Source: Halomicrobium zhouii
GTDB lineage: Archaea; Halobacteriota; Halobacteria; Halobacteriales; Haloarculaceae
DNA: 64,000 nucleotides
Assembly: GCF_900114435.1 (NCBI RefSeq)
Contig: NZ_FOZK01000003.1
Location: forward strand, 1 to 64,000
Direction: 5' to 3'
The position numbers and the translations under genes were made by a program. This document shows, in pieces, positions 9,482 through 42,138 of this stretch. The first letter of the stretch is position 1. Every line of letters begins with the position of its first letter. Below the pieces are notes generated by a model. That model did not search any database and was not told the origin of the DNA. It saw nothing but the letters and a program-made list of their open reading frames with translations.

Positions 9482-10486
9482 TCACTGGGGCGCGAGTTCG
9501 GCCATCGTCGCGTCGACGTCGTCGGGCTCGGCGGCCCGCGGGAACGATACGGAGAGTGCATCGACGCCGTCGATTTCCGCAAATCGCTCGATCCGGTCAC
9601 GACACGCCTCGGGCGTCCCGGCGACGGCGAGTTCGTCGAGCAGGTCGTCGTCGATGGCGGCCGTCGCGGCGTCGTGGTCGCCGTTGGCCCACCGTTCGGC
9701 GACGGTGTGGGCGGTCTCTTCGTAGCCCTGCCGGGCCAGCGAGTCCCTGTAGAACGTCCCCATCCCGCCGACGTAGAAGGCGACGTGCTGTCTGACGAGG
9801 TCGCGGGCTCGCTCGCCGTCCGGGAGCACACAGCAGGGAACCGAGAGCGTGACGCGCTGTTCGGACCGGTCGCGGTCGCCCAGTTCGGCGCCGCGGTCGA
9901 AGTCCGCCAGCCGGTCCCGCAGGCCGTCGCGGGTGAGCATGAGCGCGTGCCAGCCGTCGGCGAACCGGCCGGCGAGTTCCACCGACTTCGGCCCCAGCCC
10001 GCCGGCGTCGACGCCGGGCCTGGGCTCGGGCGGTTCGTGGCGCAGTCTGAACCCCGAGAGCTGGAAGATATCGCCGTCGTAGTTCAGCTGGTCACCGCGG
10101 AGAACGGTCTTGACTATCTCGACGGCCTCCCGGGTGCGTTTGAGCGGCTGTTCGAAGTCGACGCCGTGCCACCCCTCGACGACGATGGGGCCGGAGGGGC
10201 CGAGGCCGATGCGGAACCGGCCGTCCGACACCTCCTGGAGCGTCGCGGCGGTCTGGCCAAGCAGCGCGGGCGACCGGGAGTAGACGTTCGCGATGGAGAT
10301 GCCGAGACCGATCGATTCTGTGCGTTCGGCGACACTCGTCAACGTGGTCACCGCGTCCCGGCCCCAGGTCTCGGGGAGCCAGGCCCGCTCGTAGCCCAGC
10401 CCCTCGGCGCGGCGGGTCAACTCGACCAGCGTGTCGACGCTGGGCTGTGCGGCAACGGGGAGATAGACGTCGCGTGGAACGGTCAT
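9482..10486 (-). CDS. F420-dependent (LLM-class) oxidoreductase
   Basis: 334 aa. The luciferase-like TIM barrel is seen from ERAWLPETWGRDAVTTLTSVA (residues about 33-53), the GLGISIANVYSRSP strand and the GPSGPIVVEGWHG loop near residue 100. Such enzymes move hydride between coenzyme F420 and an organic substrate. The whole resembles the haloarchaeal NP1902A-type subfamily (TIGR04024), a family recollection. The substrate is unknown. The cofactor link is notable because cofD, which builds F420, is also in this window. The two Cys at about 220 (VPCCVLP) are uncommon. FMN-dependent chemistry cannot be excluded by sequence alone. Confidence 0.82.
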   Translation of the reverse strand: MTVPRDVYLPVAAQPSVDTLVELTRRAEGLGYERAWLPETWGRDAVTTLTSVAERTESIGLGISIANVYSRSPALLGQTAATLQEVSDGRFRIGLGPSGPIVVEGWHGVDFEQPLKRTREAVEIVKTVLRGDQLNYDGDIFQLSGFRLRHEPPEPRPGVDAGGLGPKSVELAGRFADGWHALMLTRDGLRDRLADFDRGAELGDRDRSEQRVTLSVPCCVLPDGERARDLVRQHVAFYVGGMGTFYRDSLARQGYEETAHTVAERWANGDHDAATAAIDDDLLDELAVAGTPEACRDRIERFAEIDGVDALSVSFPRAAEPDDVDATMAELAPQ

Positions 10487-13378: not shown

Positions 13379-14446
13379 TCAGTCGGCGCTGGCTTCCGGA
13401 CCGGCGACGACGTCGATCTCGCCGGCGTCGAGTTCTTCCTCGACCTCGCGGGCGGCCTGCACCATGTTCGCCATCTTGCCGTAGGCGACCTCCCGGGGGA
13501 GCAGCTTCACGCCACAGTCCGGCGAGACGGTGAGTCGCTCCGGCGGGACGACCTCCAGGCCCTTCTTGATGTTCTCCTTGATCTCCTCGACCGATTCGAC
13601 TTCAGCGACGTGGACGTCCGTGACGCCCATCGCGAAGTCCTTCGTGAACTCGTGGGCCTTGAACACGTCGAGCTGTTCGTAGTCGCCGTTGGCGAGTTCG
13701 AGGTCGAACTCGTGGACGGGGTACTCCAGGATCTCCGGGTAGATGCGGGAGTAATCGCCGTAACAGACGTGGAGTCCCAGGCGGACGTCGTCTGGGACCT
13801 CGTCGGCGATGCGTTCGAGACACTCACCGACGATGGCGTGGTCGTCCGGCGTGGTCGCGAGGGCCGGCTCGTCGATCTGGATGTAGCGCGCGCCGGCCTC
13901 GACGAGCGCTTCTATCTCCTCGTTGACCAGGTCGGCCAGGTCGTAGGCCAGCGCTTCCTCGTCCTCGTAGACCTCGTTGAACGCCCAGTTGGCAAGCGTG
14001 TAGGGGCCCGTGATGGGGACCTTGACGGGCCGGCTCGCGACGGAACTCGTGAACTCGTACTCGCTGACGAGCCACTCCTCGTCGTACTCGACCTCGTCGG
14101 TGACGCTGGGCTTGTCGTAGTAGTTGTGGCCCCACACCTTCACGCGGCCGTTGAACTCGTAGCCGTCGATGCGCTCGGCGAAGTACTCGACCATCTCGTT
14201 GCGGCGCATCTCGCCGTCGACGACGACGTCGAGGCCCGAGCGCTCGTGCTCTTCGGTGATGAGCCGCGAGGCGTCGTCCTTGGCTTCCTCCCACTCGTCA
14301 CTCCCGAAGTCGGCGTCCTCGTCCTCGAACAGCTCGCGGGCGCGGTCGTGCCACTTGGGCTTGGGGTAGGAGCCGACGACGGTCGTCAGCAGGAAGTGGT
14401 CGTTCGGGTGGTCCTCCGGTCGGAATTGCTCTCGTGGTCCAGTCAT
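13379..14446 (-). CDS. metE: Core MetE-like methionine synthase, zinc site intact
   Basis: 355 aa, equal to only the C-terminal catalytic half of bacterial cobalamin-independent MetE. It methylates homocysteine to methionine. The zinc ligands are in place: His226 and Cys228 (HVCYG), Glu250 (FDLELAN) and Cys311 (SPDCGVK); IDEPAL (191-196) is the family motif. The start TTVVGSYPKP segment (20-30) is also typical. Stand-alone core MetE proteins of archaea may take the methyl group from a donor other than methyl-tetrahydropteroyl-triglutamate, so the donor is open. It is second in the operon; its ATG shares one base with the stop of the upstream paralogue. Confidence 0.88.
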   Translation of the reverse strand: MTGPREQFRPEDHPNDHFLLTTVVGSYPKPKWHDRARELFEDEDADFGSDEWEEAKDDASRLITEEHERSGLDVVVDGEMRRNEMVEYFAERIDGYEFNGRVKVWGHNYYDKPSVTDEVEYDEEWLVSEYEFTSSVASRPVKVPITGPYTLANWAFNEVYEDEEALAYDLADLVNEEIEALVEAGARYIQIDEPALATTPDDHAIVGECLERIADEVPDDVRLGLHVCYGDYSRIYPEILEYPVHEFDLELANGDYEQLDVFKAHEFTKDFAMGVTDVHVAEVESVEEIKENIKKGLEVVPPERLTVSPDCGVKLLPREVAYGKMANMVQAAREVEEELDAGEIDVVAGPEASAD

Positions 14447-15441
14447 CAGGCTTGCACCTCCTCGAGTTCCGCGGCGTCTGCGAGGGCAGACAGCTTGGCT
14501 TCGAACTTGTTCACCGGCAGGTAGAACAGCTCCGTGTTCGCCGTCGCGTAGACGGTGTCGTAGTCGCCGGCCGTCTGGTCCGCGAACCAGTCGATGCGCT
14601 CACGGATAGTCTCGGGCGTCTCGACGAGCGTGTTCTGCCCGTCGACGAGGCCGAGCGCGACCGATTCCTTGGTGCCGTACTCCTGGACGTTGTAGACGGT
14701 CTGCTCGTGGTCGGCGATCAGGTCGAAGCCGATGGCGTCGACGTCGGCGTCCATGAGGTGGGCGTACACCTTCTCCTCGATGGCGCCCCAGTAGGTGTGG
14801 GCGACGACGTCGGCGTCGACTGCGTTCGCGACCCGGTCGATGGCCTCGCTGGCCCGCTCGTCTGCGCCGTCGCCGGGCGCGTTCTCGACGAGCGAGGGTT
14901 CGAGCAGGAACAGCGTCTCGACGTCGGGGAACTGCCTGGCCTCGTCGGCCAGGAACTCCGCGACGGCGTCGAGGAACGCGGCCTCGTCGCCGTAGTGCTC
15001 GTCGGTCGCCAGGTCGGCCAGCGAGTACGGGCCCGGGAGGACGGCCTGAAGTCCCGAATCGACGTGTTCCGCGGCGGCGTCGAGTTCGGCAGCGACGTCA
15101 CCGGTCGCTTCGAGGTCGCCGGTGACGACCGGCTCCCTGTAGAAGTTGTTGTTGTCGTAGTAGCGGACGATGCCGCGGGTGTCGACGGAGTCGGCGACGG
15201 CCAGCGGGTGGGCGATCATGTCGTCCCAGCGGAGCTGGCCCTCGACGACGCGGTCGAGGCCGGCGTCGGTCTGTACGTCGAGGACCTCACGGCGAGCGCG
15301 GTCGTACGCGTCCGCTACCTCGGCGGACTCGTCGCCGCTGATGAGGTCGGTCTTCTGGTGTCCTTTCAGGTCGGACAGTTCGTCCTTCGCCCAGTCGGGT
15401 AACGGGAACAGGCCGGGCGTCGTGGAGACTACCTGCGTCAT
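14446..15441 (-). CDS. MetE-like paralogue lacking the zinc ligands
   Basis: 331 aa, first gene of the methionine operon. It aligns with its neighbour by fold motifs: LLEPSL (180-185) in place of IDEPAL, VVAHTYWG (212-219) in place of LHVCYG, and GLVDGQN (264-270) in place of DCGVK. His215 is kept but the Cys, Glu and Cys ligands are lost, and I see no cysteine in the protein at all. It therefore cannot bind the catalytic zinc in the MetE manner. A likely role is as the folate- or methyl-donor-binding partner of the downstream enzyme, echoing the two-domain architecture of full MetE; this is inference. Start supported by the TATA at 15464-15474. Confidence 0.82.
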   Translation of the reverse strand: MTQVVSTTPGLFPLPDWAKDELSDLKGHQKTDLISGDESAEVADAYDRARREVLDVQTDAGLDRVVEGQLRWDDMIAHPLAVADSVDTRGIVRYYDNNNFYREPVVTGDLEATGDVAAELDAAAEHVDSGLQAVLPGPYSLADLATDEHYGDEAAFLDAVAEFLADEARQFPDVETLFLLEPSLVENAPGDGADERASEAIDRVANAVDADVVAHTYWGAIEEKVYAHLMDADVDAIGFDLIADHEQTVYNVQEYGTKESVALGLVDGQNTLVETPETIRERIDWFADQTAGDYDTVYATANTELFYLPVNKFEAKLSALADAAELEEVQA

Positions 15442-38961: not shown

Positions 38962-39954
38962 ATGGTGACGTTCCTCTCCGGTGGCACGGGGACCCCCAAG
39001 CTACTCGCTGGCGCCGCCCCGGTCTTCCCGCCCGCCGAGACGACGGTCGTCGGCAACACCGGCGACGACGTCGAACTCGCGGGCCACCTCGTCTGTCCGG
39101 ATCTCGACACCGTCCTCTTTCTCGACGGCGACGTCCTCGACCGCGACCTGTGGTGGGGAATCGCGGACGACACCGCTGCGACGCACGACGAACTCCACCG
39201 ACTGGCCGAGGAAGCCGACCTCGAATCCGGCCCACGGTATCTGCCAGACGACGTCCAGACCGCCGGTCGCTCAATCTCGCGTTGGCGCCGATTCTCCGGC
39301 GTTGCGGAGTTCATGCACATCGGCGACCGCGACCGCGCCGTCCACCTCACTCGAACCGGACTGCTCGACGAGGGCCACACGCTCACCGAGGCCACTCAGG
39401 TCATCGCCGACGCCTTCGGTCTCGAACGGACGCTCCTCCCGATGTCGGACGACCCCGTCGCGACTATCGTCCACACGCCGGACGGCCCTCAGCACTTCCA
39501 GGAGTGGTGGGTCGCCCGCGGCGGCGAGCCCGGCGTCGAGCGCGTCGAGTTCCGCGGCGCCGACGAGGCCCGGCCGACCGACGCCGTGCTGACCGCACTC
39601 GACGACCCGGTCGTCGTCGGTCCGTCGAATCCCGTCACGAGTATCGGGCCGATGCTTGCGCTGCCGGAGTTCGAGGAGCGTCTTCAGCAAACGCCCGTCG
39701 TCGCAGTCTCCCCGTTCGTGGCGGACGAGGTGTTCTCCGGTCCGGCCGCGGACCTCATGGCCGCGACGGGACGCGAACCCAGCACGGCCGGCGTCGCCGA
39801 AGCGTATCCCTTTGCGGACGCGTTCGTCCTCGACGACGCCGACGACACGGACCTGGACCGACCCGTCGTCAGGACCGACACGGCGATGGACGACGCCGCC
39901 GACGCCGAGCGCGTCGCGCGAGCGGTCGCGGACGCGCTGGAGGTGGCCTCGTGA
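38962..39954 (+). CDS. cofD: 2-phospho-L-lactate transferase (F420 biosynthesis)
   Basis: 330 aa from the ATG at 38962. CofD joins the activated phospholactate or phosphoenolpyruvate guanylate to Fo, making F420-0 (or its dehydro form). Signatures: [12 protein letters not shown] (4-15), [20 protein letters not shown] (about 32-51), [19 protein letters not shown] in the middle, and [15 protein letters not shown] (about 217-231). It supplies the cofactor used by the LLM oxidoreductase at 9482-10486. It is the first gene of a four-gene operon; its stop overlaps the next GTG. Confidence 0.95.
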
Positions 39955-40712
39955 GTTCACGACCTCTCTTCGAGCCCCGCGTCGCCGCCGCCAGCCTGAG
40001 TGGCGCGTCAGACGCGGAGTGGGCCCGCGCCGCCGCCGAGTACGTCGGCTGTGCGTTCCTCGGCGGGGTCGCCCTGGACGAGCCGACTCGTCGGGCGGCC
40101 AGGCAGCTGGTCGACCGCGACCGCGAGGAGTTCCTCCCGGCCGACCCACACCACTTCGTCAACTCGCAGCTCCGGGCCCTCGACGACGTGCCGATTCGGC
40201 CGGCGGTGAACGTGCGCAGTTCGACGCTGGTTCCGCTGGAGGACGCGGCCGACCTCTGTCGCGACCACGACGCGATCCTGGAGATAAACGCCCACTGTCG
40301 GCAGGAGGAAATGTGCGACGCACGTGCGGGCGAAGCGTTGCTCCACCAGCCGGGTCGGCTGTGCAAGCAGGTCGAGGCCGCCACGGCGACCGGCGCCACG
40401 GTCGGCGTCAAGGTGCGCGCCGAGGTCGACGGGGTCGATCTGCCGGCGCTGGCCGCGGACCTCGACGCGGTTGGCGCCGACCTGATTCACGTCGACGCGA
40501 TGGACTCCGAGCCAGTCGTGGCCGACGTCGCCGATGCGGTGGACGCCTTCGTCGTCGCCAACAACGAGGTCCGGGACGAGCCGTCGGTGCGGGAGTATCT
40601 GGAATACGGTGCCGACGCCGTCAGCGTCGGCCGCCCGAGCGACGACCCGCGAGTCCTCCAGCGCGTCCGCGAGGCGACCGACGCGTGGTTCCGGGAGGAG
40701 GCTTCGCCGTGA
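39951..40712 (+). CDS. Dihydrouridine-synthase-like FMN TIM-barrel protein
   Basis: 253 aa from a GTG at 39951 overlapping the cofD stop (GTGA). The barrel has [18 protein letters not shown] at the start, [23 protein letters not shown] near residues 104-126 (where Dus enzymes have INxGCP with the catalytic Cys), [13 protein letters not shown] (KVR as in the phosphate/FMN strand) and [28 protein letters not shown] at the end (GAD.V.xGR as in Dus). The Pro after Cys is replaced by Arg and the protein is about 70 residues shorter than tRNA Dus, so a non-tRNA substrate is quite possible. Its place in a cofactor operon makes a metabolic flavoenzyme plausible. Confidence 0.72.
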
Positions 40713-41542
40713 GATCTCTCGCCCAGAACGCCGAGCTGGCGCTCCTGCTGGAGGTGACGAGCACGCCGAAACCCGGAAACGTCGACCGGCGTCACGAGTA
40801 CGACGACCTACGATTCGAGCACTTCCTCGCCGGTGCGGTCGGGGCCCGGCCCGGGCTGGACGTCGCCGCCGACGGTGGCCCGGTCGGCCGGGCGTTCGAA
40901 CGATCCGTCGAGGGAATGGCCGAGCAGAAGGGCGGCAACACCCAGTTCGGAGCGCTGTTGCTGGTCACGCCGCTCGTCGCGACTGCGGCATCGGGAGCGC
41001 TGACTCCCGAGCGGGCCAGCGATGTCGTCTCGGGAACGACCGTCGAGGACGCGGCGGAGTTCTACCGGGCGTTCGAGCACGTCGACGTCGCGGTGGACGA
41101 CCCGCCCGAGGACCTGGACGCGCTGGACGTCCGACGGGGGAGCGACGCTATTCCCGAACTCGAAGCTCGGGACCTCACGCTCGCGGACGTGATGGGACTC
41201 AGTGCGGACGTCGACGGCGTCGCGGCCGAGTGGGTCGATGGATTCTCCCGGTGTTTCGAGGCGGCCGCCGCGATAGAACGACGCGACGGGCCAGTCCCGG
41301 ACCGCGCGGCACACGTCTTCCTCGAATTGCTCGCCGACGAGGTCGACACGTTCGTCGTGACCCGCAACGACCGCGAGACGGCCGAAGAAGTCACGCGGCG
41401 GGCCCAGGCAGTGCTCGACGGCGAGGAGGACGCCGCCGACCTGGCCGACGAGTTCGTGGAACGCGACGTCAACCCGGGGACGACGGCCGACATAATCGCC
41501 GCGGCCCTCTTCGTCGCGCTGGAACGGGGGCTCCAGGTGTGA
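40709..41542 (+). CDS. CitG/MdcB-like protein (triphosphoribosyl-dephospho-CoA synthase family)
   Basis: 277 aa from a GTG at 40709 overlapping the previous stop. The family motif is LLLEVTSTPKPGNVDRRHEYDDL split around residues 11-33 (EV..TPKPGNVDR is diagnostic), with GGNTQFGALLLVTPL (about 74-88) and the late DEFVERDVNPGTTADIIAAALFV. CitG itself makes the prosthetic group of citrate lyase, but no citrate or malonate lyase genes are visible here. The archaeal branch probably has another role. The conserved neighbourhood with CofD and DUF447 is the main clue. Confidence 0.8.
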   Translation: MRSLAQNAELALLLEVTSTPKPGNVDRRHEYDDLRFEHFLAGAVGARPGLDVAADGGPVGRAFERSVEGMAEQKGGNTQFGALLLVTPLVATAASGALTPERASDVVSGTTVEDAAEFYRAFEHVDVAVDDPPEDLDALDVRRGSDAIPELEARDLTLADVMGLSADVDGVAAEWVDGFSRCFEAAAAIERRDGPVPDRAAHVFLELLADEVDTFVVTRNDRETAEEVTRRAQAVLDGEEDAADLADEFVERDVNPGTTADIIAAALFVALERGLQV

Positions 41543-42138
41543 CAGAGTTCGACGGGGACGCTGAGTGGCCCGTCGACCTCCGCGGCGTCACCGAGTCGGT
41601 CGTGACGACACTCGGGCCCAACGATCGGTGGAACGTCGCCGCGCTGGGTCTTCACGCCCCCGACGGTGACGCCGGATCTGTGACGGCGAAGACGTGGGGC
41701 CGGACTCGCACCTGGCGCAACTTCCGCGAACGCGGTGAGGGATACGTCCAGTTCGTTTCCGACCCCGTCGACTTCGTCGAGGCAGCGATGACCGTTCGGG
41801 AAGAGGACGACCCAGTGCTCGCGAGCGCGGACGCGTGGGCTCGCGTGGACGTGTCCCGGCGGGACGAGGGGACCGACGGAGAGACGCAGTGGGTCGAGTG
41901 GGAACTCCGCCCGTTCGAGTCCGCCGTCGAGCGGGAGTCAGTGCCGACGATAAACCGGGGGTTCAACGCCGTGATAGAGGCGACCGTGGCGGCTTCACGG
42001 CTGGACGTCCCCACCTACGACACCGCGGCGTTGCTCGAACGACTCGCACACCTGGAGTCGGTCGTCGAAACCTGCGGCGGCGAGCGGGAGCGGGCAGCGT
42101 TCGCGGTGCTCACAGACCACGTCGACGCCGAGTGGTGA
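41539..42138 (+). CDS. DUF447-family protein
   Basis: 199 aa from a GTG at 41539 overlapping the CitG-like stop. It starts with DLRGVTESVVTTLGPNDRWNVAALGLHAP (split over residues about 13-41), which with TAKTWGRTRTWRNF (about 48-61) and YVQFVSDPVDFVEAA (about 69-83) recalls a flavin-reductase-like split barrel as assigned to DUF447. NRGFNAVIEATVAASRL is the conserved C-terminal helix. It probably binds a flavin or flavin-like cofactor. Function is not established. Last gene of the cofD operon. Confidence 0.78.
   Translation: MTEFDGDAEWPVDLRGVTESVVTTLGPNDRWNVAALGLHAPDGDAGSVTAKTWGRTRTWRNFRERGEGYVQFVSDPVDFVEAAMTVREEDDPVLASADAWARVDVSRRDEGTDGETQWVEWELRPFESAVERESVPTINRGFNAVIEATVAASRLDVPTYDTAALLERLAHLESVVETCGGERERAAFAVLTDHVDAEW

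Follow-up and report, generated by a model that had tools for sequence, protein, structure and literature searches.

Which cofactor is served by the four-gene operon that begins with cofD in Halomicrobium zhouii, where a gene of coenzyme F420 synthesis is followed by three genes with no clear role? The operon lies within the window analyzed here, a stretch of 64,000 nucleotides (positions 1 to 64,000 of the forward strand of contig NZ_FOZK01000003.1, assembly GCF_900114435.1; the genome is 4.25 Mb in six contigs, and its close relatives mark it as haloarchaeal). When reread from the sequence, the four genes and their three GTGA junctions have the positions given in the initial annotation:

38962..39954, + strand: cofD, 2-phospho-L-lactate (or enolpyruvyl) transferase of F420 synthesis; ATG start, TGA stop; TIGR01819 equivalog
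39951..39954, + strand: GTGA stop/start overlap of cofD and the Dus-like gene, from sequence
39951..40712, + strand: Dus-like flavin mononucleotide (FMN) TIM-barrel protein with an HCRQ motif; GTG start, TGA stop; PF01207, AlphaFold2 model
40709..40712, + strand: GTGA stop/start overlap of the Dus-like and CitG-like genes, from sequence
40709..41542, + strand: CitG-like protein (ATP:triphosphoribosyl-transferase family); GTG start, TGA stop; PF01874, motifs
41539..41542, + strand: GTGA stop/start overlap of the CitG-like and DUF447 genes, from sequence
41539..42138, + strand: DUF447 split-barrel protein; GTG start, TGA stop; PF04289 and PF20766

We lean towards an answer in which the CitG-like and DUF447 proteins, together with a homologue of beta-RFAP synthase (RFAPS) encoded elsewhere, build an RFAP-derived, methanopterin-like methyl carrier that is loaded by F420-dependent Mer and used by a split MetE to make methionine. 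In that case the operon would provide both of the cofactors that haloarchaea need for the methyl branch leading to methionine.

Two sets of sequences were compared, 247 sampled genomes of the phylum, 29 of which are haloarchaeal, and 80 named haloarchaeal loci containing the Dus-like gene. DUF447, CitG and the RFAPS homologue are all present in the same 26 of the 29 haloarchaea and all missing from the other three, designated G008, G060 and G119. In the window genome, RFAPS is not linked to the operon (G000:C1:1150525-1151472) and, at 156.3 bits, passes the TIGR00144 equivalog cut-off of 113.5. The same 26 genomes have a Mer orthologue (46-64% identity), missing from G008, G060 and G119, and an adjacent MetE1-MetE2 pair that is broken in these three. 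All 29, module losers included, have kept cofD and Mch, so that Mch is ruled out as a member of the co-lost set, and the Dus-like gene is present in 28 (it is missing only from G018), again including all three losers. Among the control genomes, an identical four match DUF447 and RFAPS. One of these, Sulfolobus acidocaldarius, also has CitG and has neither a CofD nor an Mch match, and the module is therefore independent of F420. The CitG-like protein, DUF447 and RFAPS form one module that is either wholly present or wholly missing. G008 and G060 are members of one genus (g5, of which the 80 named loci include no record), and G119 represents a second genus in their family, which makes two independent losses among those verified. 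The co-losses favor a pterin other than folate in haloarchaea.

Three further features of the window are needed to follow what was lost and what was kept:

14446..15441, - strand: MetE1, split methionine synthase subunit without zinc ligands, proposed to bind the methyl pterin; homology, Halobellus orthologue PF08267/PF01717
13379..14446, - strand: MetE2, split methionine synthase catalytic subunit with zinc ligands; homology, Halobellus orthologue PF01717 at 180 bits
42361..42552, + strand: rps17e, the downstream reference gene, brought close to the Dus-like gene by loss of CitG-DUF447; gap comparison

The G060 chromosome, available as a full sequence of 2,085,946 bases with no N, has no match at E<1e-5 to CitG, DUF447, RFAPS, Mer or MetE1. 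It retains cofD (66% identity), the Dus-like gene (65%), CofE (62%), NpdG (48%) and MetE2 (49%). MetE1, the subunit without zinc ligands in other haloarchaea, has been lost from both G008 and G060, and MetE2 has been kept with its zinc ligands intact. This lineage has therefore kept the half of the enzyme that activates homocysteine, and the presumed methyl-pterin-binding half is gone along with Mer and the RFAP module. The partnerless, zinc-bearing MetE2 is encoded at L085:7367-8422 in G008 and at about 1839642-1840667 in G060; in these genomes either another methyl donor must be in use or the lone MetE2 must have a different function. At the operon, the stop codon of the Dus-like gene is 40 nt from rps17e in G008 and G060, as compared with 2.4-3.8 kb in the four pair-carrying relatives measured, and CitG-DUF447 has been cleanly excised in this genus. 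The corresponding gap in G119 is 1.2 kb, with another gene between. An empty site is also found in three species of Halarchaeum (L105, L130 and L149), with 23-71 nt separating the Dus-like gene from rps17e, and Halarchaeum is probably a third independent loss of CitG-DUF447.

In different lineages these genes are also linked in other combinations. A plasmid of Halobellus limi carries Mer-DUF447-RFAPS-MetE1-MetE2 with npdG divergent, and G018 has RFAPS, a phosphoesterase, an inositol-phosphatase-like gene, CofE and Mer in a row. Mer-CofE adjoins the cofD-Dus-CitG-DUF447 operon in G246 and lies near it in three Halolamina species. In the window genome, CofE-Mer is on another contig (L086) and the split MetE pair is inside the window at 13379-15441, as two adjacent subunits with zinc ligands in only one. 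About 3 kb from this pair, at 9482-10486, the window also encodes a protein that is weakly Mer-like (29% identity) and appears to belong to the luciferase-like family. Such linkage bears on an unlikely explanation of the losses, namely that small or fastidious lineages became methionine auxotrophs and lost these genes by coincidental genome reduction, with no pathway connecting them. The three losers do have genomes of 2.1-2.4 Mb, and G060 strongly matches only 29 of the 61 genes in the window, but five genes common across the class vanish as a set while cofD, the Dus-like gene, CofE, Mch and MetE2 stay, and Halobellus, G018, G246 and Halolamina provide independent linkage.

Outside the haloarchaea, the pair is associated with tetrahydromethanopterin (H4MPT) genes. 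In three methanogen-side loci (L036, L042 and L043), the gene for DmrX (dihydromethanopterin reductase) lies on the downstream side of DUF447, either next to it or no more than about 1 kb away. DUF447 is present in the H4MPT clusters of two Burkholderiaceae, Cupriavidus oxalaticus and Paraburkholderia caribensis, among Mch, RimK-type and ATP-grasp genes; a profile search also places CitG in the Cupriavidus oxalaticus cluster, and the Paraburkholderia caribensis cluster adds an RFAPS-like GHMP protein and Mtd. The statement in the initial annotation that CitG-like and DUF447 genes occur in the C1-pterin gene sets of methylotrophs is thus borne out in Cupriavidus and Paraburkholderia. In a tree, the haloarchaeal RFAPS groups with the RFAPS-like protein of a bacterial H4MPT cluster, and its origin as a Methanomicrobia-type paralogue is therefore rejected. 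A diverged second RFAPS-like GHMP protein is encoded in G013 (G013:C42:91871-92794), about 2 kb from CitG-DUF447, and in relatives from families f10, f19, f24, f25 and f26; no other RFAPS-like gene was found in the two f26 genomes tested.

The gene order itself is conserved beyond close relatives, so that one refuting condition set by the initial annotation does not apply. DUF447 is present in 231 of the 247 genomes of the phylum, the full cofD-Dus-CitG-DUF447 order recurs outside the haloarchaea in G001 and G030, which belong to other, non-halophilic families, and the order Dus-CitG-DUF447 occurs in several more. The Dus-like gene adjoins cofD in every one of the 80 named haloarchaeal loci; in 67 of them CitG and DUF447 lie no more than 10 kb away, and neither occurs there without the other (67/67). 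Overlaps of 4 bases join CitG to DUF447 in 53 of 65 named loci and the Dus-like gene to CitG in 44 of 65. The arrangement is conserved by more than chance. In several Natrialbaceae, CitG-DUF447 is located apart from cofD-Dus, so the operon is best regarded as two pairs, cofD-Dus and CitG-DUF447. The overlaps seen in the initial annotation are therefore real, but the strict translational coupling to cofD that it proposed is no general rule, given this separation and the deletion of the second pair elsewhere. The evidence supports its suggestion of a cofactor pathway connected to F420 or pterins and allows the genes to be assigned separately, with CitG-like and DUF447 pointing to a methanopterin-type pterin and the Dus-like gene to cofD and F420. 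The division into two pairs and the connections with RFAPS, Mer and split MetE go beyond that annotation.

That CitG-like and DUF447 act in a variant F420 pathway, as their tight operon with cofD in most haloarchaea might imply, is improbable. The module-less G060 retains cofD, cofE and npdG, the pair is found away from cofD in several Natrialbaceae, the module of Sulfolobus acidocaldarius comes with no CofD match, and no cofD was seen in the Burkholderiaceae H4MPT loci examined that carry CitG/DUF447. A role for the pair in forming the F420 tail was likewise rejected, as G060 has F420 genes without the pair and Sulfolobus the pair without a CofD match.

How the methyl carrier might be made is suggested by the protein families. 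CofD is a confident assignment (TIGR01819 equivalog, 377.3 bits against a cut-off of 257.45). The CitG-like protein scores 237.6 bits against PF01874 (cut-off 27), keeps the family motifs TPKPGNVDR, GGNTxFG and NPGTTAD, and has a solved archaeal relative (3h9p). DUF447 is a two-domain protein in profile searches (PF04289, 90.4 bits; PF20766, 64.2 bits) and matches the solved split-barrel proteins 2nr4, 2iml, 2ptf and 3b5m and, weakly, the FMN-binding 1eje. The reaction of CitG and the structure of methanopterin are established, and were used to assign steps. We know of no enzymes for two steps of methanopterin synthesis, the opening of the aryl riboside to ribitol and the addition of an alpha-linked ribosyl phosphate to the 5-OH. 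In the proposed route, RFAP synthase would form the aryl C-riboside from p-aminobenzoate and phosphoribosyl pyrophosphate. DUF447, as an FMN enzyme, would open this reductively to an aryl-ribitol, a step assigned to it on the basis of its split-barrel and FMN-binding matches. The CitG-like protein, to which the retained motifs and the solved relative suggest a ribosyl transfer from ATP, would release adenine and place an alpha-linked ribosyl-5-phosphate on the ribitol 5-OH, much as CitG acts on dephospho-CoA. Joined to a pterin, the side-chain product would give the methanopterin-like carrier, on which Mer would place a methyl group using F420H2 (hence cofD and cofE), and the non-catalytic MetE1 would present the methylated carrier to MetE2 for the synthesis of methionine. 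The fuller proposal, that haloarchaea make a second, RFAP-derived carrier solely for the F420-dependent methyl branch and that CitG-like and DUF447 proteins catalyze the two side-chain steps across archaea and methylotrophs, has in our estimate a little under an even chance of being correct. Genes for a metallophosphoesterase recur near CitG-DUF447 or CofE-Mer (L039:6774-7466, L042:6014-6694, L054:7272-7757, L079:5879-6436 and L086:6060-6587); their products are only distantly alike, and could provide a phosphatase of the side-chain pathway.

The fold and motifs of PF01874 would also fit a true triphosphoribosyl-dephospho-CoA synthase, making the prosthetic group of an acyl carrier. CitG/MdcB synthases share this Pfam family and these motifs, but the CitG-like protein falls far below every CitG/MdcB equivalog cut-off (TIGR03132, 47.2 bits against 282; TIGR03125, 41.4 against 272; NF002315, 42.5 against 280). 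No citrate or malonate lyase genes are seen beside the haloarchaeal gene, whose partners are pterin genes, and this function is very improbable.

Several observations weigh against a methanopterin-like carrier. Haloarchaea are held to use tetrahydrofolate and to lack methanopterin, and the authors of published annotation work think that the haloarchaeal RFAPS homologue makes no RFAP (PMC4500146, PMC8305020). Of 67 residues shared without exception by the methanogen enzymes in the comparison, that homologue has only 33. The search for DmrX in haloarchaea gave nothing but partial matches of ferredoxin type. Mch persists in the module losers and so suggests no route by which C1 units would reach a second carrier. 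The evidence of co-loss comes from two verified lineages with the small genomes noted above, and G119 retains a diverged MetE1-like gene in place of MetE2. The carrier of the methyl branch may be ordinary tetrahydrofolate, with RFAPS, CitG-like and DUF447 making something else, required by Mer or split MetE alone, or modifying the folate tail. This explanation, which we regard as possible although doubtful, agrees with folate as the accepted haloarchaeal carrier and with the presence of Mch in all genomes, module-less ones included. It does not sit easily with an RFAPS above its equivalog cut-off, or with the fact that other lineages have these genes within H4MPT clusters or next to dihydromethanopterin reductase. 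Tetrahydromethanopterin biosynthesis in methanogens and methylotrophs (with RFAPS/MptG and DmrX) and the haloarchaeal system have RFAPS, CitG-like and DUF447 genes in common, and CitG-DUF447 is beside DmrX or within H4MPT clusters in the former. They differ in that haloarchaea have no DmrX and are reported folate users, and in that the haloarchaeal module is linked to Mer and split MetE rather than to methanogenesis or formaldehyde oxidation.

The Dus-like protein calls for a separate explanation. It passes the PF01207 cut-off (27.3 bits against 20.4) and, at 106 bits, is below that of TIGR00736, the MJ0144 family (218.7). C116, K154, H180, G220 and R228, the active-site cysteine and FMN-site residues, are invariant in the alignment, and the arginine that the initial annotation noticed after the key cysteine is real, as HCRQ is present in 13 of 13 aligned members. 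The AlphaFold2 model (pLDDT 95.3; 253 amino acids) is a single TIM barrel ending in one helix, with no C-terminal helical tRNA-binding domain, and its nearest solved folds are DusC/DusB, dihydroorotate dehydrogenase B (DHOD-B), ene-reductase, dihydropyrimidine dehydrogenase (DPD) and FabK, every one of them an FMN enzyme that acts on C=C bonds. MJ0144-type proteins share the TIGR00736 barrel and the operon position with the haloarchaeal form, but are fused to a methanogenesis marker 9 domain in methanogen-side families, whereas the haloarchaeal form is below the cut-off and has no such domain. Each of the three Dus-like proteins scanned from the methanogen side carries the fusion and is encoded at the corresponding place in the operon (L036:4568-5680, L037:5243-6376 and L040:4762-5889).

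A role as a tRNA dihydrouridine synthase would account for the PF01207 match, the DusC/DusB folds and the retained cysteine, but it is improbable with the tRNA-binding domain missing, HCRQ in place of the usual CP motif, and cofD adjacent in every one of the named loci. The phenotype of a deletion also argues against it. In Haloferax, the COG0042 gene HVO_2478 is numbered beside cofD, HVO_2479 (PMC8305020), and its deletion strain had growth rates of 0.0243 in rich medium (wild type 0.0227) and 0.0075 in defined medium (wild type 0.0133) (PMC3017900). A growth defect confined to defined medium is more readily explained by an impaired biosynthetic pathway than by a missing tRNA modification.

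An archaeal CofC was found by Bashiri et al. (2019) to take phosphoenolpyruvate in vitro, giving dehydro-F420-0, and they predicted an archaeal reductase, CofX, which was not found near cofE (PMC6450877). As it is always beside cofD, the Dus-like gene is a fair candidate for CofX, and as an FMN-dependent C=C reductase its product would complete F420 by reducing dehydro-F420-0. This is a separate and weaker proposal than that of the methyl carrier, and one we make tentatively. G018 and several methanogen-side families have cofD with no Dus-like gene, and a 2021 review retains the 2-phospholactate route for archaea, so that the need for CofX is not settled. The reaction proposed is like that of the C-terminal dehydro-F420-0 reductase of mycobacterial FbiB, also FMN-dependent (PMC6450877), although FbiB has a nitroreductase fold that is unrelated to the TIM barrel of the candidate.

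The operon is real, conserved and informative. Its gene families are known and the module is one of methanopterin biosynthesis. In the literature that could be searched, we found no earlier report of this module in haloarchaea or of its connection to methionine synthesis, and no link of CitG, DUF447, COG1767 or MJ0144 to methanopterin. An 'estimated 7 unknown proteins' are listed for Methanothermobacter (PMC3087415); the two unassigned methanopterin steps are part of these, and would gain named candidates if the methyl carrier exists as proposed. The archaeal split MetE described by Price et al. (2021) likewise has two adjacent subunits with zinc ligands in one; its methyl donor was left open in that study (PMC7857596), whereas it is tied here to the RFAP module and Mer, and would become known for a whole class. 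For F420 synthesis, the Dus-like gene provides a concrete candidate for CofX, and these readings can all be tested in Haloferax volcanii, a genetically easy host. If they hold for the carrier, haloarchaeal one-carbon metabolism would need a second carrier, contradicting the view that it depends on folate only.

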